A DNA stretch of 64,000 bases from Actinomyces sp. B33 (lineage in GTDB: Bacteria; Actinomycetota; Actinomycetes; Actinomycetales; Actinomycetaceae), in NCBI RefSeq assembly GCF_028437565.1, contig NZ_JAMRYR010000001.1, forward strand, positions 62,001 to 126,000. Reading direction: 5' to 3'. Below the pieces are notes generated by a model that was not told the DNA's origin, ran no database searches, and was given only the letters and a program-made list of their open reading frames with translations. Shown here in pieces: positions 16,510 through 39,061 of the stretch. Each line of letters opens with the position of its first letter. Position 1 is the stretch's first letter. A program made the position numbers and the translations under genes.

Positions 16510-17196
16510 TTATTCGTCGACCCCCCGGCCCCACCCGGCGACGACGTATCCCCCGGGAGGGACCGACTCGGCATCCGCGACGAACACCACGTGATCGGCC
16601 CACCGCCCGGCGATGTTCATGTACCGCTCCCGCAGCCCCTCCTCGCGCAGGCCCAGGCGCCGGCACACCGCCAGCGATCGGTCGTTCTCGGGGCGCACGC
16701 AGATCTCCACGCGATGCAGCTCCAGATCGCCGAGGGCCATGTCGAGGGCCACGGCCGTCACCAGGGGCCCCACTCCCCGGCCGGCCCACTCCCCGGCGAT
16801 CCAGTAGCCGATCATCGCCTGCGACATCGCCCCCCCGTGGACGTTGGCGATCGACACCTGCCCGATCGCCCGCCCATCCGCCTCGACGACGAGGAAGAGC
16901 GCCTCACCCCGTCGCTGCTGGCCGTCGGCCCGGCGACGATACTCCCCCAGACCCGGGAGGATCTCCGTCGACCCCGCCGGCAGCGTCGCCTCCCACGGGG
17001 AGAGCCACTCGGAGTTCGCCCGTCGGACCTCGTCGATCCGGGCGTGATCGCGGCCGAACGCCGGGCGCACCACGAGCCTGCGCGGATCCTCCCCCCCGGG
17101 CGACGAGCGGATCATCCCACGGCCGACCGGGTCGTCGACGACGACCGTCAGATCCAGGACCGGCCGCCCCCACGCCCTGTGGGGGAACCCGATCAT
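16510..17196 (-). CDS. GNAT acetyltransferase, RimJ/RimL-like
   Basis: A 228-residue GNAT protein. The ATG at 17196 overlaps the glp stop (ATGA) and fixes the start. The fold is visible from about residue 45 on: LFLVVEADGRAIGQVSIANV (beta 2-4), the acetyl-CoA motif YWIAGEWAGRGVGP (Q/RxxGxG/A type), then VEICVRPENDRSLAVCRRLGLREEGLRERYMNI, a typical RimJ/RimL phrase. RimJ-type enzymes acetylate protein N-termini, but family members also act on small molecules, so the substrate is open. It sits between glp and glpR in a cluster conserved in actinobacteria. A 150-base gap separates it from glpR. Confidence 0.85.
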   Translation of the reverse strand: MIGFPHRAWGRPVLDLTVVVDDPVGRGMIRSSPGGEDPRRLVVRPAFGRDHARIDEVRRANSEWLSPWEATLPAGSTEILPGLGEYRRRADGQQRRGEALFLVVEADGRAIGQVSIANVHGGAMSQAMIGYWIAGEWAGRGVGPLVTAVALDMALGDLELHRVEICVRPENDRSLAVCRRLGLREEGLRERYMNIAGRWADHVVFVADAESVPPGGYVVAGWGRGVDE

Positions 17197-21720: not shown

Positions 21721-21942
21721 TCACGCCCGGGGCTGGGCATGAGGGGGCACGTTCTCCACGAGCCTCCGGTCGTTCGCCCCGTCCCCCCGGTCGGGCGAGT
21801 CAGCCATAGCGCCGGGCCTGCGATCCCCGGGGCCAACCCGGTCCTCCCACGACGGGGCGATCCCCCGCTCGATGAGCCGACGATCGACCTCGGACACGTG
21901 GACGGCGATCCTCCTGCGACGCGACCGCCCCTCGTCCGTCAT
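21721..21942 (-). CDS. small conserved hypothetical protein (C-terminal NDxRL...PPH motif)
   Basis: A 73-residue polar protein whose ATG overlaps the stop of the preceding large gene by four bases (ATGA), strong evidence that it is translated. It is basic at the N-terminus (EGRSRRRR) and ends with ANDRRLVENVPPHAQ. From memory, a C-terminal NDERLxxxxPPH phrase recurs in small proteins encoded next to this helicase-like gene in other actinobacteria. No function is known to me. The remaining 220 bases to the mscL terminator hold nothing I recognise. Confidence 0.6.
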   Translation of the reverse strand: MTDEGRSRRRRIAVHVSEVDRRLIERGIAPSWEDRVGPGDRRPGAMADSPDRGDGANDRRLVENVPPHAQPRA

Positions 21943-26030: not shown

Positions 26031-26112
26031 GCCCTCACGGTAGTGGGGAGTACCGCCGGCGGCGCGGCGGCCTCGCCGGGGACGCGGCGATTGGACCGCC
26101 GTGCGGCTGCGC

Positions 26113-26153
26113 GTGCCCCCGAGACGATTCGAACGTCCGACACCCGCTTTAGG
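26113..26153. repeat. left attachment-site direct repeat (fragment of tRNA-Arg 3' end)
   Basis: 41 bases identical to 38988-39028, beginning GTGCCCCCGAGACGATTCG. It carries the T-arm, acceptor 3' strand and part of the anticodon arm of tRNA-Arg, but no complete tRNA. Identity stops after TTTAGG. It marks the original 3' end of the host tRNA displaced by integration. Confidence 0.92.
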
Positions 26154-26269
26154 GTGGGCAGTTCGAGCATCCCGCCGCTCAGAGCCGCATTTCCCCTTGA
26201 TTCTACAGGTTTCTCGGGAGCTTAACGTTGCTGAGTATTGTCGGATATTGCTCGATGTTGCCTTCAAAG

Positions 26270-26298
26270 AGGGTAGATAAGAGAGTAGATCTACTCTC
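26270..26298. promoter_or_regulatory. arm-type integrase binding sites, left end (overlap int stop)
   Basis: AGGGTAGAT (26270-26278) and AGAGTAGAT (26282-26290) are direct repeats 12 bases apart. The second merges into a perfect 18-base palindrome, GAGAGTAGATCTACTCTC (26281-26298), covering the integrase stop codon. The same motif pair recurs inside the other element end, as expected for arm sites of a lambda-type recombinase. Confidence 0.6.
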
Positions 26299-27490
26299 TT
26301 CGGGTCAGGGCCTCGACGGCCTCCATCATGGGCCGCACGTTGACATGATCCGTGTACGCGCGTGCGTTCACCTTTTCCGTGTGCCCGAAGTAGGCGGCGC
26401 GGATGTCCGGCCTGAGGTGGGGTGCCGTGATCGTGTTGAGCGCACCACGCCAGGCGTGCGAGCGCACCTTCGCTAGGAAGGCCAGTTCCTCGCTCTTCGT
26501 CGCCACACCCTCGTAGTATTCCCGGACCGCCTTGTGGACGCCTGCCTTGTCCCACGGCCTGCCGGAGGTCGGTTGGGGGATCACCAGGGCATCGTCCTCA
26601 CCCCTGCGAGCAAGGAGCCTCTCGCCGACCTCGGGCACGAGCACGGGGATGGTTCGCCCGACCTTCGTCTTCGAGATGGTCGCGGGCACGGTCACCCAGA
26701 CCGTCCCGTCGGCCTCGCTGACGTTGGCCCACGTGATCTGCCGGGCTTCGGAGGCTCGCAGGCCGGTGGCGAGTTGAAGTTCGGTCATTTGGATGATCCG
26801 CGCGTGCCGGGCCTTCGCCTCGGCCTTGTGCGCCTGGGGCACGTTCTCCTTGCCCGGCATGGGCGAGTCGGGGTCATCGGCGAGCACATAGTCGAGGAAG
26901 GCCCTCCACTCGGCCTGAGTCGGGAAGTATTTCTCTTCGCGGTCCTCAGCCCTCAAGAAGTCGAAGGACATTCCCCGGATGGGGTTCGAGGGCACGACCT
27001 GATGGACGATGAGTTGGCCGAACACGTAGTTGGACACGACGGAGCGGGTCTGTCTGGCCGTCTCGGGACCGATCTCCTTGGAGATGACCTTGAGGGTGCG
27101 GATGAGCGAGGAGGCGCTCGTGGCGGCGCCGATCGACTTCCCCAGCGTGTAGCGCCGATAGTGGGCCAGGACCTCCAGGTAGCGCGCCCTCGACGCCTCG
27201 GAGAGCCGCTTCTCCTTGATGACAGGCTCGACCTCACGGTCGAGGAAGTCCGTGATCGAGTCGGCAGGGCTCCACGAGGTCGTCACACCGGAGGTCGCCC
27301 TCTTGATCTGCTCGGCCTTCTCGTAGGCCCTACGGCGGGCCTCGCCGACCGTCCGCGCCTGTGTCCGCTTCGCGTGGAGACGGCCCTCGAAGTCGCGTAC
27401 GCGCCAGCGCAGTTCATAGCCGGTCTCGGTCTTGCGAGGCGTGACCGACTTGATTGTGTCCTCGCCCGGTTGCAGTTTCGCTCTCGCCAT
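26291..27490 (-). CDS. int: tyrosine-type site-specific integrase
   Basis: A 399-residue integrase that would insert and excise the element at tRNA-Arg(CCU). An N-terminal arm-binding region (about 1-70, with KTETGYELRWRVRDFEGRLH) precedes a SAM-like core-binding domain (about 75-180) and the catalytic domain. The first catalytic Arg is in LQLATGLRASEARQITW. The box II equivalent is SHAWRGALNTI, with a divergent H-x-x-R, and further on AAYFGHTEKVNARAYTDH gives the third His and the Tyr nucleophile. The gene lies 138 bases from the left repeat and reads toward it. An arm-type motif sits just before its ATG, so the integrase may control its own transcription. It has no good ribosome site. Confidence 0.93.
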   Translation of the reverse strand: MARAKLQPGEDTIKSVTPRKTETGYELRWRVRDFEGRLHAKRTQARTVGEARRRAYEKAEQIKRATSGVTTSWSPADSITDFLDREVEPVIKEKRLSEASRARYLEVLAHYRRYTLGKSIGAATSASSLIRTLKVISKEIGPETARQTRSVVSNYVFGQLIVHQVVPSNPIRGMSFDFLRAEDREEKYFPTQAEWRAFLDYVLADDPDSPMPGKENVPQAHKAEAKARHARIIQMTELQLATGLRASEARQITWANVSEADGTVWVTVPATISKTKVGRTIPVLVPEVGERLLARRGEDDALVIPQPTSGRPWDKAGVHKAVREYYEGVATKSEELAFLAKVRSHAWRGALNTITAPHLRPDIRAAYFGHTEKVNARAYTDHVNVRPMMEAVEALTRRE

Positions 27491-27495
27491 ACCAA

Positions 27496-27506
27496 AGAGA
27501 GTAGAT
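27496..27506. promoter_or_regulatory. arm-type motif upstream of int
   Basis: AGAGAGTAGAT, identical to the copies at 26281 and 38899, lies 5 bases upstream of the integrase start. It could be an additional arm site or an autoregulatory operator. Confidence 0.5.
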
Positions 27507-27851
27507 TGTTACGGTAGGTTGTGCAATGGAGGCCACAGTTGTAGACTGGGGGTGCACCGGATGGTCCGGTGCGGTTGCCCTCGTGGGATCGCGGCCCACG
27601 TTGGAGTGAGCGGTTCGCTACCGCCCGCCGGTAAGCCCCTGGTGCCGGTGCGATGTTGATAAGGGGCAGGCCGCACGGGGCCATTCGTGAACCGCACCGT
27701 GCAGGAGCCGCAGCCGGGAGACCTCCCCCGGTTCGGTGAGGAGCCTCAGGAGGTCCCGCCCAGGCTGGAGACGACGCCTTCCTGGGAGTATCGGTCGGGG
27801 ACATCGCCATCGTTGAGATCGCAACCTTTGCTACCCGCAAAGGAACCTCCG
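27507..27851. other. non-coding divergent region between int and xis (hairpin at 27554-27572)
   Basis: 345 bases separate the divergent int and xis genes. A perfect 8-bp inverted repeat with loop TGG lies at 27554-27572 (GCACCGGA / TCCGGTGC). The stretch should hold promoters for both directions, but I see no clear -35/-10 pair. It is also a reasonable place for an origin of transfer or replication; nothing in the sequence proves either. Confidence 0.45.
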
Positions 27852-28076
27852 ATGACTACCCCTACAATCACGGCACAGTTGCCGACCTCCCCTTATCTCC
27901 TGTCCACGGAGCAGGCCGGTGAGTATCTCGCCGTCTCGCCAGACACACTGCGCACCTGGCGCTGCCGTGGACGCGGACCTGCCTACGTGGCCGTTTCGGC
28001 CCGTAACGTCCGTTACCGCGTTGAGGACCTCCGCGCATGGGCTGATGCCCACCTCGTTGGGGGTGGTCGTCGATGA
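27852..28076 (+). CDS. excisionase-like / AlpA-type winged HTH protein
   Basis: A 74-residue DNA-binding protein. The ATG at 27852 follows AAAGGAACCTCCG, giving a ribosome site, and begins MTTPTITAQLPTSPYLLSTEQ. The MerR-like HTH_17 signature is complete: LLSTEQAGEYLAVSPDTLRTW, then RCRGRGPAYVAVSARNVRYR and VEDLRAWADAH. Such proteins act as excisionases or regulators in tRNA-integrated elements. Its stop overlaps the polymerase ATG (ATGA), so the two are co-translated and the protein might also control or assist replication. A role as Xis is inferred from size, family and position next to int. Confidence 0.82.
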   Translation: MTTPTITAQLPTSPYLLSTEQAGEYLAVSPDTLRTWRCRGRGPAYVAVSARNVRYRVEDLRAWADAHLVGGGRR

Positions 28077-31000
28077 CCGGCACCGCCTCCATCACCGCCA
28101 GTCAGCCTGTGGGCACCGTTGGGGTGCCCCAGCGGGGTGCGGAGGAAGAGCACTCGCGTGACGATAAGGCCTTATCTTCACGGAGCACCCCTTCGATTCG
28201 CCTGGAAGACCAGGCGAATCTCGGACTGGCGGCAGCCCCCTATGGGGTAGCCCCCGTTGCCGCCGCTGCCGCCAGTGCGGTCGCGGCAAGCTGGTCCGCC
28301 ACCGAGGCTCGCGACACGGCGACCTCGAAGAAGCACCCGGCAGAGTTCACAGTGCTGACCCGGACGGTCGCGCGCTCGGTGTCAGGAGCTGGATCGACGT
28401 TCCGCGATTACCCGTCGATCGAGGCGATGGGCGCGGGCGGAGCGCCGGGCATCGTCATCGGCTTCGATACCGAGTTTGTGGGAGCGGACGAGCTGGACCC
28501 TCAGCGGGGATGGATCGGTGAGAGCGAACAGGTCGCCCGGAGGGTGATCTCCTACCAGTTCGCCGCACTCGATCCAACCGACGACACACGGCTGCGACTC
28601 GCAGTGGTCCTGCCCCATGAGTACCCAGGCCCCGTCGGCGTGCGCGTCGCGAGGCTGAGCTTTGAGAGGGCACTCGAAATCGCGATCACGGCCCTCGGCC
28701 TGCACGAGCACCCTCTCGCTCAGGGGTGGAGTGAGAAGGGCGTGCCCGACTCTGACTGTGTGGACTCTAAGGGCGTACGCCGCCCCTCAGCGTGGTATCG
28801 CAAGGGCTGTCCGTCCAGGGCGCTGCCCCTCACCCTCGTCGCGCATTTCCAACACGCTGATCTGACGACCTTCGTCGACAAGCGCAAGGCGGTGAACACC
28901 TGGAACGAGGCCTACCCGAGCAGGGCACGGAAGGTGTCCGAGCAGGCTGGGCATGAGTCCCGTCGCGCTCGTTGGCTCGACAACGCTGCTCCTGACATCC
29001 TGCGTGCCGTCATCAGCGCCTCCGCAGGGATGGTCAGCCCCACCCCGGTTCGGCTCATCCTCGACGGTGACAACTGGCGTTGGAAGCGCCCGGTCGAGGT
29101 CTCGATCAGGGACACCATGGCCCAGTCTGGGGCTGTGAGCCTCAAGGTGCTCGGCGACTCGGTCGGCGTCCCAAAGCTTGACGTGCCCGGCGACTTCATC
29201 ACGCGCATGGACGACTATCTGGCTGAGTACCCCGTCGAGTTCCTTGAGTATGCGGCCAACGACGCCGTCATCGCCCTGGAATACGTGACCGCGCTCTATG
29301 GGCATGACCGCTCTTTCCCGCTGTCGCTACCAACGGGTGCAGCGGCGATGATGCGCAGGCACATCACCAAGCAGCTGTGCGGTGGAGACATCGTCGAGCA
29401 GGTGCACGGCGAGGTCCTCGGGACCTCTTCAGCCACGTTCAACGGCGTCTTCGGTGGTCTGACCAAGATCGACAAGACCGTCGACGCCACGACGAGCCAC
29501 GAAAACGAGCTCGCCTACTACCGCAAGCGTGAGCTGGTGCCCCTGGATGGGGCCTCGGCCACGTGGAGCCACTCTTGTGCGCTGAGCTTCAGGGGTGGGT
29601 ACAACATGTGCTCGGAGATCGGGTTCTTTCCCCAGGAGACGCACGACTTCGACCTGATCTCCTGCTATCCCACGAGCTCATCAACGATCCTCGACGTGGA
29701 CTTCCTCGCCGACGGTGGGGTCATCGAACGGACGGTGAACAACCACTCTCTGAGCCTTGACAACTTCACGGAACTCGGGCCGCTCACCCCGTTCGCCGGC
29801 TTCGTCTCCTTCGAGTTCCCGAGGTCAGTTGCCTACCCGTGTCTGCCAGTCCCGCTCGACGGCTCGATGGTCTACCCAAGGTCCTCGGGTGGGGCTCGGG
29901 GTGTGTGGGCGACTGGGCCGGAGGTGTGGCTCGCGTTGACTCTCGGCGCTGATGTGAGTTGCCAGATCGGCCACTTCGCCCGTGTCCGTCGAGTCGTCGA
30001 GGAACCATCCCGGCTCCTGCGCGGTGCCTATCAACAACTCCTCGACGACCGTGCTCGGGCGAAGGAGGAGTTCGGCCCCAAGTCCTTCGAGCAGGGTGTT
30101 CTCAAGCTCATGGGCAACTCCCCATACGGGAAACTCGCTCAGGGAGTGATGGGCCAGCGCGGCTGGAATGCCTGGGCTCAAGAGCGCGACGACGTAGGTG
30201 GGTCCGCTATCACCTCCCCCTACCACGCGACCATGACGACTGCCCTGGTCCGGGCTGTCCTTCTCGCGACCCTCAACCAACTGCATGATCTCGGGTACTC
30301 AACGCCCTCGTGCACGACCGACGGCTTTATTACGGATGCACCGCTGGGCGTCGTTGATGGTCTCGACCTCTTCGGTCTCGCTGAGCTGTGGCGAGAGTCC
30401 CGTGAAGCGCTGACAGGGTCTCGCAACATGTGGGAACGCAAGCACCATCAGCAGGACCTCCTCAACATCACCACGCGAGCGAACTTCTCCCGTGAGCCGA
30501 GCGGTGTGCTCGCACACGGGGGGTACAAGCTCCCCGAGGGGATCGTTGAGGACTCGCAGGAGGATCGCGATCTGATGTATGAACTCATGGTCAGTCGTGA
30601 CGGGGCCCTGCCGGTCACAATGAAGGTCTTCCCGTCCGTTCAGGAGCTCACCCGCACCGAGCACCGTCTCGACTTCGCTCCCAAGATCGTCGACAAGCAG
30701 TTGACCATCGAGTTTGATCGCAAGCGTCGACCCGTCCGGGACGGCATGACGGCCCACCTTGTCGAGGTCGGCGACGATGTCTACGAGGTCGCACACGTCC
30801 ACACCATCCCATGGGAAGACGCCCAAGAGGCGATGCTGGGCCGTTCGGTCGATAAAGGTCTCAAGCGCTTCGACAAGGACCTCGGCGAGGTTGTCTGGGA
30901 GAGGTCTCCGGTTAGGCGCACTCGGGATCAGTGGAACGACTATTTCGACCGGCTTGATGCCCTCCTCGATGAGGACGGTCGGGTCTGCGAGGCCGAGCGC

Positions 31001-31261
31001 CTCGACCGCATCAGTAAGGGAATCGTCATTGCCCACCGCCAGGGTGTCATCACGATCCCCTGGCTGGACTCCACCGCGCCGCTGGCTGAGCGCCTTGACG
31101 CATTTGAAGCCTTCGGGCTCCCCCGACCGAAGGAACGGTTCTGGAGCCATGCGCGCTCGAAGGTCGAGAGGCAGATCGAGGTCGAGCTCGATGAGATCGC
31201 GCCCTACGTGGAGGAGATGCTGCTCGTCGACCCACTCTCCGAGGAAGGAGAGCTCTCATGA
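28073..31261 (+). CDS. family-B DNA polymerase with DEDDy 3'-5' exonuclease (pipolin-type candidate)
   Basis: A 1062-residue DNA polymerase. After about 130 poorly conserved residues the proofreading domain is intact: Exo I FDTEF (Asp132, Glu134), Exo II HFQHADL (Asp263) and Exo III Y393-AAN-D397. Polymerase motif A is DLISCYPT (Asp527), motif B is KLMGNSPYG (Lys678-Gly686), and motif C reads CTTDGF (Asp750), so the first Asp of the usual DTD is Thr. Downstream, WERKHHQQDLLNITTRANFS resembles the KTRG region of protein-primed and primer-independent PolBs. It starts inside the excisionase stop and ends inside the next start. The expected role is self-replication or repair of the element; whether it is primer-independent (piPolB) needs a tree or an assay. 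Confidence 0.88.
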   Translation: MTGTASITASQPVGTVGVPQRGAEEEHSRDDKALSSRSTPSIRLEDQANLGLAAAPYGVAPVAAAAASAVAASWSATEARDTATSKKHPAEFTVLTRTVARSVSGAGSTFRDYPSIEAMGAGGAPGIVIGFDTEFVGADELDPQRGWIGESEQVARRVISYQFAALDPTDDTRLRLAVVLPHEYPGPVGVRVARLSFERALEIAITALGLHEHPLAQGWSEKGVPDSDCVDSKGVRRPSAWYRKGCPSRALPLTLVAHFQHADLTTFVDKRKAVNTWNEAYPSRARKVSEQAGHESRRARWLDNAAPDILRAVISASAGMVSPTPVRLILDGDNWRWKRPVEVSIRDTMAQSGAVSLKVLGDSVGVPKLDVPGDFITRMDDYLAEYPVEFLEYAANDAVIALEYVTALYGHDRSFPLSLPTGAAAMMRRHITKQLCGGDIVEQVHGEVLGTSSATFNGVFGGLTKIDKTVDATTSHENELAYYRKRELVPLDGASATWSHSCALSFRGGYNMCSEIGFFPQETHDFDLISCYPTSSSTILDVDFLADGGVIERTVNNHSLSLDNFTELGPLTPFAGFVSFEFPRSVAYPCLPVPLDGSMVYPRSSGGARGVWATGPEVWLALTLGADVSCQIGHFARVRRVVEEPSRLLRGAYQQLLDDRARAKEEFGPKSFEQGVLKLMGNSPYGKLAQGVMGQRGWNAWAQERDDVGGSAITSPYHATMTTALVRAVLLATLNQLHDLGYSTPSCTTDGFITDAPLGVVDGLDLFGLAELWRESREALTGSRNMWERKHHQQDLLNITTRANFSREPSGVLAHGGYKLPEGIVEDSQEDRDLMYELMVSRDGALPVTMKVFPSVQELTRTEHRLDFAPKIVDKQLTIEFDRKRRPVRDGMTAHLVEVGDDVYEVAHVHTIPWEDAQEAMLGRSVDKGLKRFDKDLGEVVWERSPVRRTRDQWNDYFDRLDALLDEDGRVCEAERLDRISKGIVIAHRQGVITIPWLDSTAPLAERLDAFEAFGLPRPKERFWSHARSKVERQIEVELDEIAPYVEEMLLVDPLSEEGELS

Positions 31262-31662
31262 GCTACATCCTCGGTGGCAAGTCCTTCGAGACCGCGACGG
31301 CGGTTGCCGATTACGCGCGGATCGTCTTGCATCGCGCGGTTCCCGGTTTCGCTGTGGAGGGCGAGGACGCTGCGTTCGTCGCGGACCTCTTCTCTCATCA
31401 TCCCGAGGCCCGTCGCAAGGCAGGGCCCGGCATCGCGTTCTTCTATGTCGGCACCGTGCCTGACTGGGGCACAAGGAACTTCCTCTTCTTTAGGAGCGAC
31501 GGTACATACGACAACTTCTCGATCAAGAAGTGCATCGAGTCGATGAAGAAACAGACCCGGAAGCCTGAGCGGCTTCGCCCCACCGGCCGGGATGGGCGCC
31601 TGCACCAACCCCTCAAGGAAAAGGAATACCAGCATGAACAACCGCGATCACGCCCTCGATGA
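31258..31662 (+). CDS. DUF3223 (DCL-like) protein
   Basis: A 134-residue protein whose ATG overlaps the polymerase stop (ATGA). Residues about 10-95 carry the DUF3223/DCL pattern: a helix, LFSHHPEARRKAGPGIAFF, GTRNFLFFRSDGTYDNFSI, then KKCIES. In plants this fold occurs in DCL proteins linked to rRNA maturation and at the C-terminus of RNA polymerase IV/V largest subunits; bacterial copies have no known function to me. The last 35 residues are basic. Its end overlaps the next gene by 29 bases. Placement directly after PolB suggests a role in nucleic-acid processing for the element. Confidence 0.75.
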   Translation: MSYILGGKSFETATAVADYARIVLHRAVPGFAVEGEDAAFVADLFSHHPEARRKAGPGIAFFYVGTVPDWGTRNFLFFRSDGTYDNFSIKKCIESMKKQTRKPERLRPTGRDGRLHQPLKEKEYQHEQPRSRPR

Positions 31663-31936
31663 TCTCCTTGCCAAGGAGCGCGCCGCCTATCAGAAGCGTG
31701 TGCGTCGCCTACGCGAGCAAGCACGAAAGGACGAGGAGCGCCTGGCGTTGCGCACCGCGCACCTCATCCGAGACAAGCACCCCGACACCTACCAGCGGTT
31801 CGAGGAAGAGGCTCGCCGTCTCCTCGCCGAGGAGCGAGCGACGCGCTCGTCTCGCGCGAAGGCTGCCTCGACCTCAGAGCAGCCGGTGCAGGGCGATGTC
31901 CGGGCCGATGAGCAGGAAGGGGGCGATGCAGCATGA
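31634..31936 (+). CDS. small charged coiled-coil protein of the mobilization cluster
   Basis: A 100-residue, highly charged, mostly helical protein: ERAAYQKRVRRLREQARKDE and further Arg/Glu-rich helix, then an Ala/Ser/Glu-rich tail. A purine-rich ribosome site lies before the ATG at 31634. The start is inside the DUF3223 gene and the stop overlaps the MobC start (ATGA). I do not recognise a family. Position suggests an accessory of the relaxosome or polymerase. Confidence 0.7.
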   Translation: MNNRDHALDDLLAKERAAYQKRVRRLREQARKDEERLALRTAHLIRDKHPDTYQRFEEEARRLLAEERATRSSRAKAASTSEQPVQGDVRADEQEGGDAA

Positions 31937-32553
31937 CTAGCCTGTACGACCCGATGTATGAGGCTCGGAAGGCGCTGCGAGAGGCTATGCGGACCCAGCG
32001 GGCTCGGTCGCTCGCGTCCGCCCCGCAAGGGGTCGGCGCGGCGCCCTCCCCTCCGCCCGCAACGAGCGCAGTGAGTGAGGACGGAGGCCAGCGGAACGAC
32101 GTCAGACACGAGGGCGTCATGCCCGCAGTGTCTGACAAGTTCCCTGCTGGCCGACCGGCGTTCACACCACAATCACTGCCCAAGCAGGCGGGTGGGGACA
32201 CCGATCCCGGCGGTCGCTCGAACAGGATCACTGTGCGACTGTCCGGGGCCGAGCACGACGCGATCATGCGGCGTGCGATGGCGCTCGGCGTGAGGCCGAG
32301 CTCGTGGGTGAGGGCAGCCGCGCTCCATGCGCTGAATGCCTCGAACCCGCTCCCGGAGGCGGTGCCCCAGGCTCCGGCTCCGGGTTCGCCCGACGTTGCC
32401 CGCGCCGTCGAGCAACTTCGGCGGGTGGGCGTCAACCTCAACCAGGCGCTTCGGCGCGGTTCGGTCGTTGACGATGCCCGCGTGCGTGACCTCGCACGCG
32501 CCGTTGACGAGCTGCGCCGGTCGCTCGGAGATGGGACGGTGATCGGGACATGA
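31933..32553 (+). CDS. mobC: MobC-like relaxosome accessory protein
   Basis: A 206-residue protein starting in an ATGA overlap. Residues 1-95 are variable and Pro/Ala-rich. The conserved part follows: RITVRLSGAEHDAIMRRAMALG with VRPSSWVRAAALHAL, a ribbon-helix-helix-like DNA-binding segment, then VARAVEQLRRVGVNLNQALR, the core MobC signature. MobC proteins open and hold the origin of transfer for the relaxase. The relaxase gene follows with a 4-base overlap, confirming a mobilization module. Confidence 0.85.
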   Translation: MTSLYDPMYEARKALREAMRTQRARSLASAPQGVGAAPSPPPATSAVSEDGGQRNDVRHEGVMPAVSDKFPAGRPAFTPQSLPKQAGGDTDPGGRSNRITVRLSGAEHDAIMRRAMALGVRPSSWVRAAALHALNASNPLPEAVPQAPAPGSPDVARAVEQLRRVGVNLNQALRRGSVVDDARVRDLARAVDELRRSLGDGTVIGT

Positions 32554-33536
32554 GCACGATCAACGTCAAGTCTTCGAGGTCCGCCGCTTCGGCGGTGAAC
32601 TACGTGCTCTACGGTTCGGATGCGAAGGTGCGCTCTTTCCTTCATCGGGAGGGGCGCACCCGTGCCTCTGCGCTCACTGTCCACACGGCAGACGGCACGG
32701 CCACCCCTGAGCAGTTCCTCGCCCGCGCGCAAGCCTTAGCGAGACTGCACGGGCGCAAAGTCGAGGCCTACACCTACGTCCTCGCCTTCCATCCGGACGA
32801 GTTCGACGTGACGAAACCGGAGGACATGCAGCGGGTGTGTGAGGTCGCGCAACACCTCACCGAGGCGATGCACTCGGCGGACTACCTCATCGCCGTTCAC
32901 ACCGACGCGAGAGGCCACCACGCACACGCGCATATCACCGTGACGAACCACGACAACCTCACCGGGAAGGCACTCACCCGCTACACGAGTTGGAGGCACG
33001 GCCTACGCCAGCTGAACGATCAGATCATGAGGGAGGAGGGCCTCCAGGTACTACCGGACCCTCAGCGTCCGAAGCCCGAGTGGCTCCAGCGGCGGGAGGA
33101 CTTCACTGCCGGAGGCTTCGAGCAACGCCTCGGTGACATCGTCAACGATGCGCTCACCGATCCGCGCTCGATGGACCGGGCATCGTTCGAGCAAGTCCTC
33201 GCCGAGCAGGACGTGCGCCTCGCGGTCACTAACCGCGACGGTTGGTCGTTCAAGATGCGGCGGGAGGACAACGGCAAGATCGGCAGGAAGAAGGCCTCGG
33301 CTTTGTGCCCGGACTTCACTGCCGACAAGGCGAGCGAAGTCTTCAAGGCTCACGCCCAGCAGGCAACACCCGTGCCCGTTGTGCCGCTCATGGAGGAAGA
33401 GCAGGAGGGGAAGCCCGCCAAGCGAGCACCCGGCAAGGAGGCACCGCCGGCTCGGATTACAACAGCAGCCGAACGGTGGCGTGGACGCTTACCTGAGATC
33501 GTCGAGGACGAGCCCGATGTCGACCTCAGCCTCTGA
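32550..33536 (+). CDS. MOBP-type relaxase
   Basis: A 328-residue relaxase that would nick the origin of transfer and carry the strand into a recipient. Motif I with candidate catalytic tyrosines is SAASAVNYVLYGSD (residues about 12-24). Motif III is the metal-binding HTDARGHHAHAHITVTNHDN (about 116-135), matching HxDxxxxHxHxxxxN of the MOBP class. The protein is shorter than many MobA relaxases and lacks a primase or helicase domain; the C-terminal third is basic and probably contacts DNA or partners. No coupling protein or mating-pair genes are present, so transfer must rely on a helper element. Confidence 0.9.
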   Translation: MSTINVKSSRSAASAVNYVLYGSDAKVRSFLHREGRTRASALTVHTADGTATPEQFLARAQALARLHGRKVEAYTYVLAFHPDEFDVTKPEDMQRVCEVAQHLTEAMHSADYLIAVHTDARGHHAHAHITVTNHDNLTGKALTRYTSWRHGLRQLNDQIMREEGLQVLPDPQRPKPEWLQRREDFTAGGFEQRLGDIVNDALTDPRSMDRASFEQVLAEQDVRLAVTNRDGWSFKMRREDNGKIGRKKASALCPDFTADKASEVFKAHAQQATPVPVVPLMEEEQEGKPAKRAPGKEAPPARITTAAERWRGRLPEIVEDEPDVDLSL

Positions 33537-34502
33537 GCCGGACAACATGCTCAACAAACAAGTGCTCCCGGCGACCATATCGGTCGCCGGGAGCACTTCC
33601 CGATCGTCGTTTCGACATTCACAGTTCGATCCCCACACCCTCGCTCTCTGCTCCAGCGTCCAGCTCAGACTCGAGCAGCGCCAGCCGCGCCTGCCGCAGA
33701 TTTGACTCAAGCCTGCGCTTGCGGATCCGCCTCGCCGTCTTGCAGACTTCGCCATCCTTGAACGCCTCGTCCGCGTTGCAGAACTTGACGACCTCGGCGA
33801 GCTGCCCATCAGACAGGCCTTCAAGGTTGTAACGGACGAAGTGGACCGGCCTGAAGAGCGCATGATCGAGGACGCGGACGAACTTCTCCGCATCGTGCAT
33901 TTCCGCCATGATTCCTCCCTTTCTCGCGAATTGCTTGCACAACAATTATCGCCAATCGAACAGGTGTTCGACAAGCCGAAATTAATGACATTCTGCGAGT
34001 TTCGTCCACACTCCTCCTCCACGTGATGGTCAGTCACCAGCGTCAGCAGGCTCAGCTCGTTGGCGCGACTCAGCGCCCCGGTGCTGTTCGTCCCCGCGTC
34101 GCACGTGATGACAGCCTTGGCATCAGGATGAGCAGCGACGACTGCATCGATCACCTCAGGTTGTATCTCGTGGCCGAGGTGGTAGTCGGGCACGTGCAGG
34201 CGCACGTCCATGCCCAGCTCGGAAAGCCCTGCGTACAGGATCATCCCGGCACAGATGCCGTCGGTGTCGAAGTCGGGGACGACGACGAGTGGCATCTGAC
34301 GAACTCTGAGGTACTCCAGAGCGGCACACATGGTGTCGATGTCCTGGAGCAGCGGGTGGGAGGGGTCGTTAACCTCGGCGAGGTACTCGTCGGTCCATCC
34401 CATGCGTTCACGGACGATGCTGAACAGGTCCAGGCCGGTGGGGCCGGAGGTGAGCTCGTCGATGTCCAGAGGTTCAGACGGCGGTGGCTTTGTCATGGTC
34501 AT
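33489..34502 (-). pseudogene. truncated DHH/RecJ-like phosphoesterase
   Basis: Homology is confined to about 33982-34502. After an acidic leader the phrase VVVPDFDTDGICAGMILYAG is DHH motif I (DxDxD), ITCDAGTN is motif II, and VTDHHVEEE is the DHH motif itself. Just after the VIN that normally precedes the rest of the RecJ core, the sequence becomes unrelated and the frame runs on for about 160 residues through a different, well-formed gene (33619-33909) and into the relaxase 3' end. The second half of the phosphoesterase and the DHHA1 domain are absent. AAGGA precedes the ATG at 34502, so a short product may still be made. A genuine small DHH protein with an artefactual tail is the alternative. 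Confidence 0.6.
33619..33909 (-). CDS. small hypothetical protein of the element
   Basis: A 96-residue protein with a strong ribosome site, GGAGGAAT, directly before the ATG at 33909. The sequence looks genuine: MAEMHDAEKFVRVLDHALF, then GLSDGQLAEVVKFCNADEAFKDG, a charged helical stretch KTARRIRKRRLESNLRQARL and an acidic tail. No family recognised. The first 54 residues are compact and the rest is probably one long helix. It lies inside the formal reading frame of the broken DHH gene on the same strand, which supports that gene being truncated. Confidence 0.7.
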   Translation of the reverse strand: MAEMHDAEKFVRVLDHALFRPVHFVRYNLEGLSDGQLAEVVKFCNADEAFKDGEVCKTARRIRKRRLESNLRQARLALLESELDAGAESEGVGIEL

Positions 34503-34510
34503 GGGAGTCC

Positions 34511-34834
34511 TTACTCTTCGTAGCCGAGGATGGTGAGACCGAACTCGATGGCGGCGCTGTGTTCAATGCGACAGCCTCGGGCTTTGGACCAGCCAGGGCA
34601 CATGTAGATCACCTCGGCGTGAGATAACCTCATGAGGGCCTTCCCCATGTGCCACAGAGCGGGGTTGGTGATAGTCTCATCCGGTTCGTCGGTGTATTGG
34701 AATGTGGTGTCGTACGCATCTGGCAGGATGTCGTAGCCCGCAGCGGTGAGTTCTGCTTCGGCGGTTTGACGTGCGGTGCGCACTCGGTCGGGTTCGATAC
34801 CTCGCATGGGCTGGGAAATGACGGCATAAGTCAT
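34511..34834 (-). CDS. DUF4406 protein (nucleoside 2-deoxyribosyltransferase-like fold)
   Basis: A 107-residue protein. The ATG at 34834 is chosen because GAAAGAAGA lies before it and the family begins there with the core strand TYAVISQPMRGI. The C-terminal hallmark VIYMCPGWSKARGCRIEHSA continues AIEFGLTI, matching DUF4406 (strand, P-G-W, S-x-G, E-H-x-x-A). Relatives of the nucleoside deoxyribosyltransferase-like fold occur widely in phages and plasmids. It lies 8 bases upstream of the DHH gene and is probably co-transcribed with it. Enzymatic activity unproven. Confidence 0.8.
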   Translation of the reverse strand: MTYAVISQPMRGIEPDRVRTARQTAEAELTAAGYDILPDAYDTTFQYTDEPDETITNPALWHMGKALMRLSHAEVIYMCPGWSKARGCRIEHSAAIEFGLTILGYEE

Positions 34835-34868
34835 GATGGTTCTTCTTTCAGTGTCGGAACCATGAACT

Positions 34869-34928
34869 GGTTCCACTCGGTTGACATGATGGGTTGGTTG
34901 GAACTATTACCCGGTTCCGCTCGGTTGA
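34869..34928. repeat. pair of 16-base direct repeats upstream of the DUF4406 gene
   Basis: GGTTCCACTCGGTTGA (34869-34884) and GGTTCCGCTCGGTTGA (34913-34928) differ at one position and start 44 bases apart, about four helical turns. They lie in the promoter region of the DUF4406/DHH unit and may be operator half-sites. Confidence 0.45.
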
Positions 34929-34943
34929 TAGATGCGTAAAACG

Positions 34944-34980
34944 CACCCACGCCCACTGGGTGAACCAGTGGGCGTGGGTG
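34944..34980 (-). terminator. terminator after the coiled-coil surface protein gene
   Basis: A perfect 16-bp stem (34944-34959 with 34965-34980), loop GTGAA. Read on the minus strand it is followed by CGTTTTA, giving a short T-run. It lies 24 bases past the stop at 35004. Confidence 0.85.
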
Positions 34981-35003
34981 GTGATCGTGGTGGCTGGCGA
35001 ATC

Positions 35004-36146
35004 TCAGTTGCAGTAAGCCTGGCCTTCGATGTACCAGCACTTACCGGGAGTCGTGTCCAGCTCTCCGCTGGTGTCGCCCCAGTCAATCATCGTGTCCCCA
35101 CCGCTACCGGACGAGCTGTTGCTGCTGTTGTTCGAGGGAGCAGGCGCAGGGGCGCTGTAGGACCCACCACCCGAGTAACTGGAGGACGAGCTGCCGCTGT
35201 AGTCGCTAGAGTAGCCAGAGCCACTCCCACCGGAGTATTCAGAGGTTTCACCAGAACCAGAAGCAGCCTGAGCGGCAGTAGTCTCAACAGCCTTGGCATC
35301 CTGGTACGCCTTGATGGCGTCCTTGAGAGCCTGGGTGGCGGTGTTGACCTCGGCGGTCTTGGTAGCGACCGTCTTGGCCTTGTCGATGGATGCCACAGCC
35401 TCGTCGTAGGTCGAGGTGGTCACGGTCGTGGAGACACTGTGCGACTCAGCCTCAGTGCTCTTGAGTGCGTCATAGGCGGCCTTGACGGTGGCATCGCTCT
35501 GGAGGGCAGTGTCGCCGTCCACGACGGCGAGCTGGTCGGTGGCGTCCTTCTGAGCAGCAGCCAGGTCAGTCTTGGCTGTGTCCATGGAGGTCTCTGCCTC
35601 CTCGGTCGCCTTGTCGAGACGGTACTTCTCGACAGTCTCGGTGAAGGTCGCCGTCTGGGTCTTGAGAGCATCCAGGTCGGCCTGACGAGCGCCGGTGAGA
35701 GTCGTCAGCGCGGTGAGTGTCTTGCCATCGGAGCACTGTTCGGGAGCGGTGTCCTTACTGTGCTCTTCGGCCTTGCCGAGAGCGTTGTTGAGGTCTGTGA
35801 TGGCCTTCTGACCCTCAGGAGACAGCGGGAAGTCGTCGGTGTGCTCCAGACGCTTGCCCTCGCCAACCTTGACGGAGGCATCAACGCTGTCCAGAGCGTC
35901 ATGGGCCTCGCCTACGGCCTTGCTGAGGTTGTCCTTCTGGTCGGTGAAGACCTTGCCCTGGGCCTTGCAGTCACGTTCGACAGTGTAGGCGCGGTAGGCA
36001 AAACCGCTCCCCACTCCGGTCAGGATGAGAGCGAGGACTGCGATGGAGGCGATGATCTTTGTTCGCGTGGTCCAGTGCTTTGGGTTGAGACGGTGGGTGC
36101 TTGTCGTAGAGCGTTTGTTTTGGTCATTGTGCTGTGGGGGTGTCAC
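35004..36146 (-). CDS. membrane-anchored, coiled-coil secreted protein with Ser/Gly-rich tail
   Basis: A 380-residue protein. After about 28 polar residues there is one membrane helix (about 30-50: IIASIAVLALILTGVGSGFA). The outside part (about 60-290) is a long Ala/Lys/Glu-rich helical region, then comes a Ser/Gly/Tyr-rich low-complexity stretch (about 300-350) and a compact end with CWYIEGQAYCN, where two cysteines may bridge. The GTG at 36146 follows AGGAG. No domain family recognised. It could be a surface adhesin, entry-exclusion or helper-contact protein. Composition is visibly lower in GC than the chromosome. It forms a minus-strand set with the two membrane proteins upstream. Confidence 0.75.
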   Translation of the reverse strand: MTPPQHNDQNKRSTTSTHRLNPKHWTTRTKIIASIAVLALILTGVGSGFAYRAYTVERDCKAQGKVFTDQKDNLSKAVGEAHDALDSVDASVKVGEGKRLEHTDDFPLSPEGQKAITDLNNALGKAEEHSKDTAPEQCSDGKTLTALTTLTGARQADLDALKTQTATFTETVEKYRLDKATEEAETSMDTAKTDLAAAQKDATDQLAVVDGDTALQSDATVKAAYDALKSTEAESHSVSTTVTTSTYDEAVASIDKAKTVATKTAEVNTATQALKDAIKAYQDAKAVETTAAQAASGSGETSEYSGGSGSGYSSDYSGSSSSSYSGGGSYSAPAPAPSNNSSNSSSGSGGDTMIDWGDTSGELDTTPGKCWYIEGQAYCN

Positions 36147-36170
36147 TGAGGACTCCTGTGTCGCAGGGTT

Positions 36171-36638
36171 TTAGTAGGGGTGATATCCAGGTGGGTAGAT
36201 GATATCTGGGCTTGTTTGGGCAGCGTGTGCGGCAGCGGCTGCTGCCGCGTATTCTGCATCACTGATTTCTTTGAGCTTTGGGCGGATGTATCGCTTGATG
36301 AACAGAATCGACCAGACCAGTGAAATTATCACAGCAGCAAGGACTATCCAGGGAAGTGCTGATACGAGGGCCTGTGTTTCTTGTTCACTTCCTACACCCA
36401 CAATCCGCATACTTGCGTAAAGCAAGACCATCCAAGCGATCAAGAACGAGATGGGAAAGTGCGCGACTGCCATGAGCTTCAAGCGAATCCGGCGACTCTT
36501 GACCGCAGCCGCCCCGAGTGCGACGCCACCGAGCATTAGGCCACCGGTCATCAAAACCGCACTCTTCGCTGATTGTTCGAGACCGTTGTGCATGGTCTCA
36601 CCGAAACTTGGTGTGCGTGGTTCAAATCTGAGTTTCAT
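36171..36638 (-). CDS. small multi-pass membrane protein of the element
   Basis: A 155-residue protein. The ATG at 36638 is preferred because GAGGAAAAC lies directly before it. Three or four hydrophobic segments are visible (about residues 22-45, 55-75 and 88-110), followed by a basic stretch IKRYIRPKLKEI and a Tyr/Ala/Pro-rich cytoplasmic tail ending PPGYHPY. No family recognised. It lies 24 bases upstream of the coiled-coil protein and 27 bases downstream of the next membrane protein, so the three form an operon. Confidence 0.75.
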   Translation of the reverse strand: MKLRFEPRTPSFGETMHNGLEQSAKSAVLMTGGLMLGGVALGAAAVKSRRIRLKLMAVAHFPISFLIAWMVLLYASMRIVGVGSEQETQALVSALPWIVLAAVIISLVWSILFIKRYIRPKLKEISDAEYAAAAAAAHAAQTSPDIIYPPGYHPY

Positions 36639-36665
36639 GTTTTCCTCTAACAGTTGCACCTTGTT

Positions 36666-37634
36666 CTACCCGCGCCGTATTTCAACGGCGCGAGGTGCGG
36701 ATGCTGCGGCCGCGATATTTTGACCTTGAGTACGGATCTCACTAATCGTCGCCGCCTGCATCGCGGTATTGATCATGGTGGACATCACTTGAAGGCGCTG
36801 CATTCGCTTCTGCTCTTCGATGATCTGCTGCTGGCCACGTTCCATCCGCATCCGGTGCTGCTCTTCCTCAAAGAGATTGATCGCTTCCGGCAAAGTGGTG
36901 GCACGGTAGTTGTCCACGAGGGTGAACAGGTAGGTGACTATACCCTCATCAAAGTACTGATTTGGGAAGACGCCGATGTACTCGTTTTGAAGTGCACGAC
37001 TCAACTCGTTCATACGTTGAGAGATCGCCAATGCATTCTGTTCGATGACAGCATTGGCTGCCATCGCCACACGATTTGATTCCTCGGCTCGCACGTTGAA
37101 ACTCGCAGCGCGTTTTCTTGAAACAAAGGCAACGACAAGACCAACCACAATCCCTATGAGGATGGCCGCTCCGGTCACAATAGCAATGAGAACGGGCGGG
37201 AAGAGGAGGAACTGGACGACGAGGAGGAATAGGTCTGCCACGAGCAGCGTTGCGAGAAGTTGGCGGGCAATGAAGGTTCGATCCGAGATGACGACAAGAA
37301 CCTCGTTGGTTCTACGAAGCTTGAAAACCTTCCAAATCATTTTCGTCAGCGAATACGCCACAGCGATGAACACAGCCGTCATGACCACCATCGACACCAG
37401 ATCAGAAACTCCGAGGGCGAGATAGAACAGCTCGATAAACACACCCACAAAGGCAGTGATCACCAACAACTGATCGTCTGAGGCAACCGCCCCCCTCGAC
37501 TGGATGAGTGGGCGATACCCAGACAGCACCTGCCGTTTTTGGGCATCCAACAGCCTGAGGTCTCGAAGTAGGTCACGAAGGCGTGCCAACCAGGGTTGGA
37601 GGGCGTCCCTTCCCTGAGGAACACATGAAGACAT
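36666..37634 (-). CDS. multi-pass membrane protein with cytoplasmic helical domain
   Basis: A 322-residue protein from the ATG at 37634, chosen for the AGGGAGAAAG ribosome site and MSSCVPQGRDALQPW start. Two pairs of hydrophobic segments occupy about residues 60-105 and 128-175. The cytoplasmic part holds ALQNEYIGVFPNQYFDEG, then NYRATTLPEAINLFEEEQHR and a Gln/Met-rich helix. A similar phrase, with RADTLxEAINLYEEExHR, is common in small membrane proteins of Gram-positive phages and elements, from memory; its function is unknown. First gene of the three-gene membrane operon. GC is lower than in the host genes. Confidence 0.75.
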   Translation of the reverse strand: MSSCVPQGRDALQPWLARLRDLLRDLRLLDAQKRQVLSGYRPLIQSRGAVASDDQLLVITAFVGVFIELFYLALGVSDLVSMVVMTAVFIAVAYSLTKMIWKVFKLRRTNEVLVVISDRTFIARQLLATLLVADLFLLVVQFLLFPPVLIAIVTGAAILIGIVVGLVVAFVSRKRAASFNVRAEESNRVAMAANAVIEQNALAISQRMNELSRALQNEYIGVFPNQYFDEGIVTYLFTLVDNYRATTLPEAINLFEEEQHRMRMERGQQQIIEEQKRMQRLQVMSTMINTAMQAATISEIRTQGQNIAAAASAPRAVEIRRG

Positions 37635-37765
37635 CTTTCTCCCTAAATAGGTTGCACCTATGGTCATCTCCATTACGCGACAGACAACATCATAGGGGAA
37701 CCAATGCGTTCCCGGTACTGATAAGTACCTGGAACGCCTCAGTGCCACTAACGACGATTGACAGG

Positions 37766-37993
37766 GTGAGCGGCAAGCCGACGAAAGTCCTGCGTAAGGC
37801 GCTCGGTGCCAACGTGCGTACCGAGCGCCACCGCCGCGCCCTCACCCAGGAGAGTCTCGCCGAGCAGCTCGGGATCACACCCCGGTACCTCGCCGCGATC
37901 GAACGCGGCGAGCGCAACTTGACACTGGATTCGATCGAAGCGCTTGCCGCACAGCTCGACGTCGATCCTCACTCGCTTTTGGCGTGCCCGTAG
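37766..37993 (+). CDS. XRE-family HTH transcriptional regulator
   Basis: A 75-residue Cro/CI-type DNA-binding protein, essentially one HTH_3 domain: LGANVRTERHRRALTQESLA, then EQLGITPRYLAAIERGERNLT and LDSIEALAAQLDVDPHSLLAC. The GTG at 37766 is chosen as the start nearest the domain; a GTG at 37742 would add eight residues, and neither has a strong ribosome site. It is divergent from the membrane operon and probably controls it or the element's excision genes. Its 3' end overlaps the convergent gene by 25 bases. Confidence 0.75.
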   Translation: MSGKPTKVLRKALGANVRTERHRRALTQESLAEQLGITPRYLAAIERGERNLTLDSIEALAAQLDVDPHSLLACP

Positions 37994-38220
37994 CGGAGGC
38001 GCAGACTCGCAGGACTCGGTGCGATTGCAGCTGCCACCGCCGCCCATGACAGGCCCTCGAAGGCGACGAGCTCGCGCACATGGACGGCGATCACCTCGTC
38101 CACTGCATCCCGCAGGAGAGCAAGGTCCCGCAGTTCAGCCTCCCCTAGAGACAGGTTGGGATCGTCGGCGTCAGAACGGAACGCGGCCACGTAGGCTCTC
38201 GCACGGCCATAGTCGCTCAT
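37969..38220 (-). CDS. small HTH-like hypothetical protein
   Basis: An 83-residue helical protein. GAGGGGG lies before the ATG at 38220. The end reads LVAFEGLSWAAVAAAIAPSP and continues ASLRLRYG, a pattern seen in small actinobacterial proteins with a sigma-like or Fis-like helix-turn-helix. It is encoded 10 bases after the ArdA gene and presumably in the same transcript. A DNA-binding regulatory role is an inference. Confidence 0.65.
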   Translation of the reverse strand: MSDYGRARAYVAAFRSDADDPNLSLGEAELRDLALLRDAVDEVIAVHVRELVAFEGLSWAAVAAAIAPSPASLRLRYGHAKSE

Positions 38221-38230
38221 GCCCGCCCCC

Positions 38231-38776
38231 TCAGCAGTCCCGGAACACACGCACGCCGCCGTCAGGGACATCAAGCACGGCGAAGTCGTAACGGCAGTCG
38301 CGCTCATAGGCATCCCAGTCGAAGTATCTGATCGCTTCCTCGGTCCAGCCGTAGAACAGTCCGCAGTCCTCGGCCCAGGACTGCACGAACTCACGAAACG
38401 AACCCCAACAGCCCTGGTTAGCCTCCTCGAACTCGACCACTGAGGGGGTACCGTTGACGTCGAGGGAACGCGAGCAGTGCTCGCACCAAGCGAGCAGGGC
38501 GGGCCACTGGCTATCCCCAACCTCGGTGAACAACTCGCCCCAGGCAGCGGCCTCATCCTGGGTGACCTCGCCAACCCCGGCAGGCAGGTGCTCGGAATCC
38601 AGGCCGAGGACCTCCTCGCAGCCCTCACGGACGTTCTCGGCGCCTCCATGGACCTCAGCGAGCGAAACCTCCTCGAGGCCATCGCATGGGAACCAGGCCC
38701 CGACCAAGCGCCCCTCGTTGTAGCAGGACAAACAAGCGAGCCAGACGGCGGGACGAACAGCAGTTGAAGTAGTCAT
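38231..38776 (-). CDS. ardA: ArdA-like antirestriction protein
   Basis: A 181-residue acidic protein. ArdA mimics B-form DNA and blocks type I restriction enzymes, protecting incoming elements. Signs of the family are the N-terminal VWLACLSCYNEGRLVGAWFP, strong acidity throughout, and the C-terminal SFREFVQSWAEDCGLFYGWT followed by IRYFDWDAYERDCRYDFAVL. The second of two adjacent ATGs (38776) is preferred because GGGAGG is then 5 bases away; the first (38779) would be too close. It lies next to the right attachment site, a typical early-entry position. Confidence 0.85.
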   Translation of the reverse strand: MTTSTAVRPAVWLACLSCYNEGRLVGAWFPCDGLEEVSLAEVHGGAENVREGCEEVLGLDSEHLPAGVGEVTQDEAAAWGELFTEVGDSQWPALLAWCEHCSRSLDVNGTPSVVEFEEANQGCWGSFREFVQSWAEDCGLFYGWTEEAIRYFDWDAYERDCRYDFAVLDVPDGGVRVFRDC

Positions 38777-38898
38777 CATGACCTCCCGAGTAGGCGGAGG
38801 CCGGACTGCGGCAGTCCACTCGGGAACAGGACGCTCACGGGACAGCCCGACCTCCAAGAGGTCTCCCGGACCCCGCCAGGGGTCTGATCCCAAAGCAA

Positions 38899-38921
38899 AG
38901 AGAGTAGATAAAAGAGTAGAT
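38899..38921. promoter_or_regulatory. arm-type integrase binding sites, right end
   Basis: AGAGAGTAGAT (38899-38909) and AGAGTAGAT (38913-38921) are direct repeats with a 12-base period, in the same orientation and spacing as the left pair at 26270-26290. They lie 67 bases inside the right attachment repeat. Confidence 0.6.
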
Positions 38922-38987
38922 CGGGGTCCCGAGCGCTTCCGCAACTCGGAACCCCGACCCGTTTCCCCTGGTAAGCCAGGGATTTAA

Positions 38988-39028
38988 GTGCCCCCGAGAC
39001 GATTCGAACGTCCGACACCCGCTTTAGG
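38988..39028. repeat. right attachment-site direct repeat (within tRNA-Arg)
   Basis: 41 bases identical to 26113-26153. This copy is the 3' part of the functional tRNA-Arg gene, so the element supplied a replacement 3' end on integration. Confidence 0.92.
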
Positions 39029-39061
39029 AGAGCGGTGCTCTATCCCCTGAGCTACGAGGGC
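38989..39061 (-). tRNA. tRNA-Arg (anticodon CCU), integration target
   Basis: A 73-base cloverleaf on the minus strand. Acceptor GCCCTCG pairs with CGGGGGC (one T-G pair), discriminator A. The D-arm is TAGCTCAGGGGATAGAGC, the anticodon loop is CTCCTAA (anticodon CCU, codon AGG) and the T-loop contains TTCGAAT. Its 3' 40 bases are duplicated at 26113. Confidence 0.95.

Follow-up and report, generated by a model that had tools for sequence, protein, structure and literature searches.

We report that a 12.9-kb element in Actinomyces sp. B33 is probably an integrative mobilizable pipolin, in which a primer-independent family-B DNA polymerase (piPolB) stands in place of a replication (Rep) protein. 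The element occupies positions 26113-39028 of the 64-kb stretch of contig NZ_JAMRYR010000001.1 that was analyzed (the window; the coordinates of all features are positions in it). This reading is drawn from sequence, namely from the element borders, the empty integration site, the class of the polymerase (PolB), the gene order, a structure resembling an origin of transfer (oriT), and the position that Rep and PolB share, and every activity described below is inferred from these. An earlier note on the same DNA had suggested an actinobacterial pipolin or a sister group of pipolins. The pipolin reading is borne out by the grouping of the PolB with those of pipolin plasmids.

Which kind of polymerase does the element encode? 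The protein, which the earlier note had described as a 1062-residue PolB, had no match in Pfam or NCBIfam, and its identity therefore comes from profiles and trees, both of which agree with that description. One weak match to a PHROG DNA polymerase was found (2.8e-5), and a sequence search of the PDB gave one meaningless match (E 0.79). Searching plasmids by tblastn matched 46 records, the best being Staphylococcus epidermidis pSE-12228-03 (2e-28). For the profiles and for both trees we used 31 PolBs; five non-actinobacterial PolBs made up a pipolin-type profile, and ten phi29/PRD1-type PolBs made up a phage profile. The window PolB scored 202 bits against the first and 5.2 bits against the second. 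With our own five-sequence profile, which is not the published hidden Markov model, the match reached 7.5e-59 at Z = 100000.

In both 31-sequence trees, the 13 actinobacterial and six plasmid PolBs formed one clade, with support of 100/99 on 763 columns and 100/100 on 116 hand-anchored motif columns. We added the second tree because motif C and Exo I of the phage PolBs were misaligned in the full-length alignment. Forcing the actinobacterial and phage PolBs together was rejected with either alignment (p-AU, the approximately unbiased test, 6.9e-6 on 763 columns and 0.008 on 116 columns). The actinobacterial PolBs are a clade within the piPolB clade, and the sister-group alternative is thus superfluous. 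Motifs A, B, and Exo I of the window PolB are intact, and its motif C reads TTDGF, with the first Asp missing; piPolBs are described as lacking this residue (PMC7544198). By profile and tree placement, then, the PolB is of the piPolB type and groups with PolBs of pipolin plasmids, and encoding a piPolB is what defines a pipolin in the cited part of PMC9710591.

One could also ask whether the PolB is a protein-primed polymerase left over from a decayed linear element or phage. The two kinds of enzyme belong to the same polymerase family, and phages with protein-primed PolBs infect Actinomyces (phage Av-1). Against this stand the low phage-profile score and the rejected phage grouping, by which the PolB falls outside the protein-primed group; this also speaks for the reading of the earlier note, which a firm phage or protein-primed grouping plus a terminal-protein gene would have refuted. 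A PolB search of phage records gave no match, and none of 16 pattern-matching stretches in viral contigs encodes a PolB relative. No inverted repeats of at least 20 bases join the element ends (shorter ones were not searched for). Like the earlier note, we recognized no separate terminal-protein gene in the element, although such proteins are hard to recognize. A protein-primed or phage origin is thus disfavored by the profile, the trees, the phage search, and the viral-contig scan, and we give it almost no credence.

The earlier note had further proposed that PolB is coupled with relaxase mobilization. This coupling is supported: the genes of PolB, MobC, and MobA belong to a single run of overlapping genes, and mobC contains a candidate oriT. 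The oriT structure was chosen on nine loci, the window included, in which MobA identity was at least 50%. In the 5' part of mobC at these loci, a block of DNA is conserved while the peptide varies. Three helices within the block hold their pairing through compensating changes, with a covariation of 0.498 versus 0.147 ± 0.031 in shuffles (n = 500); slid pairings reached at most 0.064. Helix 2 is paired in 100% of cells, with both partners changing in 4/4 of its pairs. The last arm of this helix leads into an invariant CCTGCTGGC, plausibly the nic region. CCTGCTGGC may resemble other nic sites, and helices beside an invariant site are the usual layout of an oriT. We predict that the conserved block at 32054-32152 is the oriT of the element.

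A covariance model of this structure was searched against 396 genomes of the order (E<=0.001) and returned 14 places, comprising six training loci and eight new ones. Each of the 14 is upstream of a MobA match from a separate protein search and shares its strand; the eight new places are ∼0.4 to 0.6 kb from it. The block was also found in 17/20 MobA loci that lack PolB. The alignment of these PolB-free blocks has 98.1% of cells paired and a covariation of 0.438 versus 0.132 ± 0.023, figures that come from 13 distinct rows fitted to the model and are therefore biased toward it. Could the block instead be a regulatory RNA, or reflect a coding constraint on MobC? It does fall within a reading frame, and an mRNA hairpin could regulate mobC and mobA. 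However, the helices stay paired though the peptide varies, the block begins shortly after the Rep gene in Rep-type loci, and every genome-wide match accompanies MobA. We consider the regulatory or coding explanation improbable.

What do relatives of this mobilization module carry where the element has PolB? Of 39 MobA matches, seven lie beside known PolBs, and 23 of the 32 others fall in the 20 PolB-free loci; nine matches lie outside this count. In the PolB-free loci, the oriT block is preceded by a Rep_OBD (PF01719) protein, which in most cases also carries an RNA_helicase-type domain; Rep_OBD was above the cut-off in 11/11 proteins examined. A Rep profile built from six of these proteins matched 17/20 PolB-free loci and 0/13 PolB loci. 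Conversely, the PolB profile matched 13/13 PolB loci and 0/20 PolB-free loci, a zero that is partly a matter of selection, as these 20 loci were picked away from known PolBs. The Rep gene stands directly before the oriT match in 16/20 PolB-free loci (L130, L134-L136, L138-L149), split over two frames in L135 and L136. Among the remaining four, Rep is represented in L137 by a piece alone, ∼7.7 kb ahead of MobA, and the oriT model finds no match there; L131 matches the oriT model but lacks Rep; L132 and L133 lack both. These data suggest that PolB stands in the Rep_OBD position of its PolB-free relatives. The exchange of Rep and PolB holds for the loci examined and is not to be read as a rate, because of the nine MobA matches outside the 20 loci.

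Several observations weigh against a pipolin whose piPolB replaces Rep. The PolB of phage BP1 also has TDG in motif C, so this motif is supportive only and not diagnostic. In the 116-column tree the phage rows were not one clade, and the PRD1-type PolBs were weakly (80/67) nearest to the piPolB clade. The reference piPolBs were all plasmid ones, without the characterized Escherichia coli enzyme; two come from species that the cited part of PMC9710591 names for plasmid pipolins, and the others are their relatives. An AlphaFold model of PolB from a three-sequence alignment had a predicted local distance difference test (pLDDT) score of 28.9 and was not used. The oriT model had no match at L068 and a weak one at L070 (30.5 bits), and the relaxases of these two loci are distant (30 to 33%); a match was also missing at L132, L133, and L137. 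Finally, the Rep_OBD proteins might not be replication initiators, because PF01719-helicase proteins of streptococcal elements are treated as putative relaxases in the cited part of PMC5704250. A role in replication appears likelier, since a separate MobA is present.

Two further observations of this kind also favor a different role for PolB, that of a cargo polymerase for repair or damage tolerance, with the element copied only with the chromosome or by transfer machinery. No MobA was seen at two of the 13 PolB loci (L019, L071), and a Fusobacterium plasmid lists PolB together with a replication initiation protein. In PMC9710591, as far as cited here, the role of piPolB is unclear, with a function in damage tolerance or repair shown as putative. 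On the other side, PolB occupies the Rep_OBD position of PolB-free relatives, and its gene overlaps those of the excisionase and the DUF3223 protein, in a run continuing to the transfer genes. The gene tables of the small PolB plasmids pSE-12228-03 and p3GD01 also name no Rep besides PolB, which is tempered by the tables being incomplete and including unnamed proteins. We judge the cargo explanation unlikely, while giving it real weight.

For the integrative mobilizable pipolin, we propose the following course of events. The tyrosine integrase and the excisionase would most likely recombine the left and right attachment sites (attL and attR) and release a circle, which PolB would most likely replicate or prime without a separate Rep; PolB possibly also synthesizes the second strand once the DNA has entered a recipient. 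MobA with MobC would nick oriT within mobC, and the conjugation machine of another element would carry the strand to a new cell, where ArdA may shield the element. No match to the PF02534 coupling protein was found in the host genome, and a helper would therefore be needed for transfer. The element proteins gave no mating-pore family above the cut-off (pore families were not searched genome-wide). Because the excisionase, PolB, MobC, and MobA genes lie in one overlapping run, excision, replication, and transfer are probably activated at the same time.

More broadly, we tentatively propose that an integrative-mobilizable chassis of Actinomycetales swaps its replication module, with a primer-independent PolB taking the place of a rolling-circle-type Rep beside the same oriT and relaxase. 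Excised mobile DNA would thus have, in primer-free polymerization, a working alternative to initiation by rolling circle; our confidence in this proposal falls a little short of even. What piPolB does for its element is posed as an open question in the cited part of PMC9710591. Loci with either a piPolB or Rep_OBD beside the same predicted oriT and relaxase offer a direct handle on whether piPolB acts as an initiator. The predicted oriT can, in addition, serve as a signature in searches for mobilizable elements of Actinomycetales, and the PolB of this element escapes Pfam.

The 41-bp terminal repeats described in the earlier note are exact, and the right copy coincides with the 3' end of the tRNA-Arg(CCU) gene that it had named as the target, so that the element has the att repeats at a tRNA of an integrated pipolin. 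The integrase gene adjoins attL. The GC content of the element is 62.3%, versus 70.9% in the remainder of the window. AGAGAGTAGAT (with at most one mismatch) occurs six times in the window, always inside the element; three copies are close to attL, two are close to attR, and the sixth is upstream of the integrase gene. In 100 shuffles, the mean was 0.36 and the maximum was 2. These copies look like integrase arm sites.

Can the unoccupied site be found in relatives? A search of 35 genomes of the genus, the window's own among them, found the tRNA-Arg(CCU) gene in every one. In the window, the element sits between the left-flank gene and the tRNA. The match to this gene starts 70 to 424 bp from the tRNA in 11 of 28 other same-genus tRNA loci and 1036 to 1067 bp from it in six; in one locus only the later part of the gene was visible, and in 10 none of it lay within the stretch. 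An empty integration site is thus present, by these distances, in several same-genus genomes. Together with the identical attL of a Buchananella metagenome-assembled genome (MAG; locus L002), these sites back the border that the earlier note had proposed to check in this way. The left-flank chromosomal gene itself (21939-26555, minus strand), which starts no more than 1.1 kb from tRNA-Arg in 17/28 same-genus loci, encodes an MTES_1575 nuclease domain and matches PADLOC PDC-S37 (1.3e-60) and Hhe (4.7e-21). In another genome of the genus (G156:C210:4110-7769), the tRNA-Arg end occurs a second time, as a 44-base copy ∼3.3 kb from the tRNA, which suggests another small integrated element in the same site.

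Features of the element, with positions in the 64-kb window
Feature	Position	Strand	Evidence
attL, 41-bp direct repeat	26113..26153	+	Exact copy of tRNA 3' end; same 41 bp adjoins L002 integrase gene
Candidate integrase arm sites, left end	26268..26299 (26268-26278 one mismatch; 26280-26290; 26289-26299 minus)	.	AGAGAGTAGAT matches
Tyrosine integrase, 399 aa	26291..27490	-	PF00589 5.7e-11; 94% identity to L002 integrase
Arm-site-like copy just upstream of int	27496..27506	+	AGAGAGTAGAT match
Excisionase-like HTH_17 protein	27852..28076	+	PF12728 2.8e-10; overlaps PolB start (ATGA)
piPolB-type family-B DNA polymerase, 1062 aa	28073..31261	+	Profiles, trees
DUF3223 protein (PADLOC HamC2-like)	31258..31662	+	PF11523 9.9e-17; PADLOC 1.3e-19; overlaps PolB stop
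Small charged protein, 100 aa, coiled-coil-like by eye	31634..31936	+	tblastn relatives at L002, L015, L018; by-eye likeness at L016, L067, L070
MobC/NikA-type relaxosome protein	31933..32553	+	PF21983 3.7e-9
Predicted oriT within mobC frame	32054..32152	+	Three covarying helices, then invariant CCTGCTGGC
MobA relaxase	32550..33536	+	PF03432 6.8e-14
Open reading frame (ORF) with DHH/RecJ-like first half	33489..34502	-	PF01368 6.1e-13; PHROG RecJ-like 3.7e-15
18-bp-stem hairpin between convergent genes, probable terminator	33560..33598	.	Terminator scan
DUF4406/nucleoside deoxyribosyltransferase-like	34511..34834	-	PF14359 3.5e-6; PHROG 4.7e-14
Three ORFs (380, 162, 360 aa)	35004..37748	-	No family above cut-off
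HTH_3 regulator	37583..37993	+	PF01381 1.5e-12
ArdA antirestriction protein	38231..38779	-	PF07275 1.1e-17; start picked by eye
Candidate integrase arm sites, right end	38899..38921	+	AGAGAGTAGAT matches
attR, 41-bp repeat inside tRNA gene	38988..39028	+	Exact match to attL
tRNA-Arg(CCU), integration target, left intact	38988..39061	-	Rfam tRNA 60.3 bits

Pfam confirmed the tyrosine integrase, the excisionase-like protein, and MobC of the earlier note. Its MOBP relaxase stood as a relaxase and not as MOBP, since the NCBIfam MobP models were far below their cut-offs. The plus-strand run of excisionase, PolB, DUF3223, 100-residue charged protein, MobC, and MobA genes is joined by four ATGA overlaps (28073, 31258, 31933, 32550) and one 29-base overlap. 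Relatives of the DUF3223 protein also come after PolB in L002, L003, L068, and L069. A PADLOC scan of nine proteins at 0.01 matched only the HTH regulator, the DUF3223 protein, and the left-flank chromosomal gene. The terminator scan overall found terminator-like sites no more numerous than in shuffles. In the DHH/RecJ-like ORF the family match is confined to the first half, and the remainder overlaps a 97-residue ORF (33619-33912), so that this may be a shortened gene or two genes. The 162-residue ORF had a sub-threshold T4SS_pilin match (E 0.21).

Relatives of the PolB are uncommon. Counting the window's own genome, they occurred in 7/213 genomes of the family (one as a fragment only) and in 9/396 genomes of the order, and among 396 genomes drawn phylum-wide only the window's own had one. 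Named records with relatives, from Buchananella and Brachybacterium, were taken as two genomes already counted. Excluding the fragment, the distinct PolB loci number 13 with the window. MobA adjoins PolB in 10 of the 12 others, at 30 to 81% identity, and ArdA relatives lie near PolB in five (L016, L017, L018, L067, L068). L002 has the same 41-bp attL and left-end arm sites as the window, a 94% identical integrase, and 82 to 84% identical DNA, and it retains three left-end AGAGAGTAGAT copies and the copy at the int promoter. Full-length matches of the neighboring chromosomal Usp protein are only 67 to 83% identical between species of the window's own genus, which points to horizontal spread of the element.

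The recombination genes of these loci differ. The tyrosine integrase is confined, among them, to the window element and L002. In 8/11 other PolB loci, a serine recombinase match (frame 494 to 614 residues) lies within ∼22 kb of PolB, with the Recombinase domain confirmed in three of the eight; the nearest tyrosine-recombinase match on the same contig was ∼37 kb off, some contigs being short. A serine recombinase was also confirmed upstream in PolB-free L130, and similar ORFs were seen by eye in others. Because serine recombinases and tyrosine integrases alternate among PolB loci, the recombination module is, by this comparison, exchanged, with PolB and the mobilization genes mostly kept together. 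A possible integration site lies beside the PolB element of L017 (2961-4936), where a predicted tmRNA gene (2961-3342) and the end of a large serine recombinase ORF (3095-4936) overlap. The L015 element (G167, same genus), which has a serine recombinase, lies ∼278 kb from the tRNA-Arg(CCU) of its genome; that locus also holds a direct repeat pair of 290 bp (6434-6723 and 16712-17001, 96% alike).

How does the element compare with known systems? As far as tested, it is an integrative and mobilizable element (IME): integrase and excisionase-like genes are present, as are its own relaxase and a predicted oriT. Canonical IMEs likewise have their own integrase and relaxase, and no coupling protein was found here; unlike them, the element has PolB where others may carry Rep (PMC5704250, in part). 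That source, as cited, mentions a single canonical IME in Actinobacteria, ATE-1 with MobV. A MobA search of plasmid records gave no match at 1e-10. The literature searched held no description of the oriT or of the Rep/PolB exchange, the 2017 Cell Reports and 2024 NAR (Nucleic Acids Research) pipolin papers being outside its coverage. The 2024 paper reportedly speaks of mobilizable and plasmid pipolins.

Pipolins have been reported in Actinobacteria (PMC7385651, PMC9710591, both in part). With those described in these sources, the element shares a piPolB-class polymerase, a tyrosine recombinase, an excisionase-like protein, att repeats at a tRNA, and a size within 10 to 40 kb. Unlike E. coli pipolins, which with one exception lie in tRNA-Leu, it is in tRNA-Arg(CCU), has an oriT/MobC/MobA module in the PolB gene run as well as ArdA, and has no uracil-DNA glycosylase among the element proteins scanned.

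The combination of PolB and relaxase is already known from pSE-12228-03, pLME300, and the cited part of PMC9710591, in which plasmid pipolins carry relaxases; that these plasmids and p3GD01 are the ones meant there was deduced from the species named. In all three, as in the element, a MobC-like gene and a relaxase come after PolB, separated from it by small or recombinase genes; for pLME300 the comparison covers part of the plasmid only. Unlike the element they are circular plasmids, and the first two, pSE-12228-03 and p3GD01, have a recombinase-family gene. The window PolB is ∼26 to 27% identical to two Staphylococcus plasmid PolBs over half its length. A pipolin-like segment of Pseudosulfitobacter plasmid P1 resembles the element in its integrase, PolB pieces, MobC, and relaxase, and differs in lying on a 276-kb plasmid with PolB pieces (L053 4637-8513) that flank an IS66-type insertion. 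The PolB-free loci with Rep directly before oriT have MobA relatives and match the same oriT model, and they carry Rep_OBD where PolB would be.

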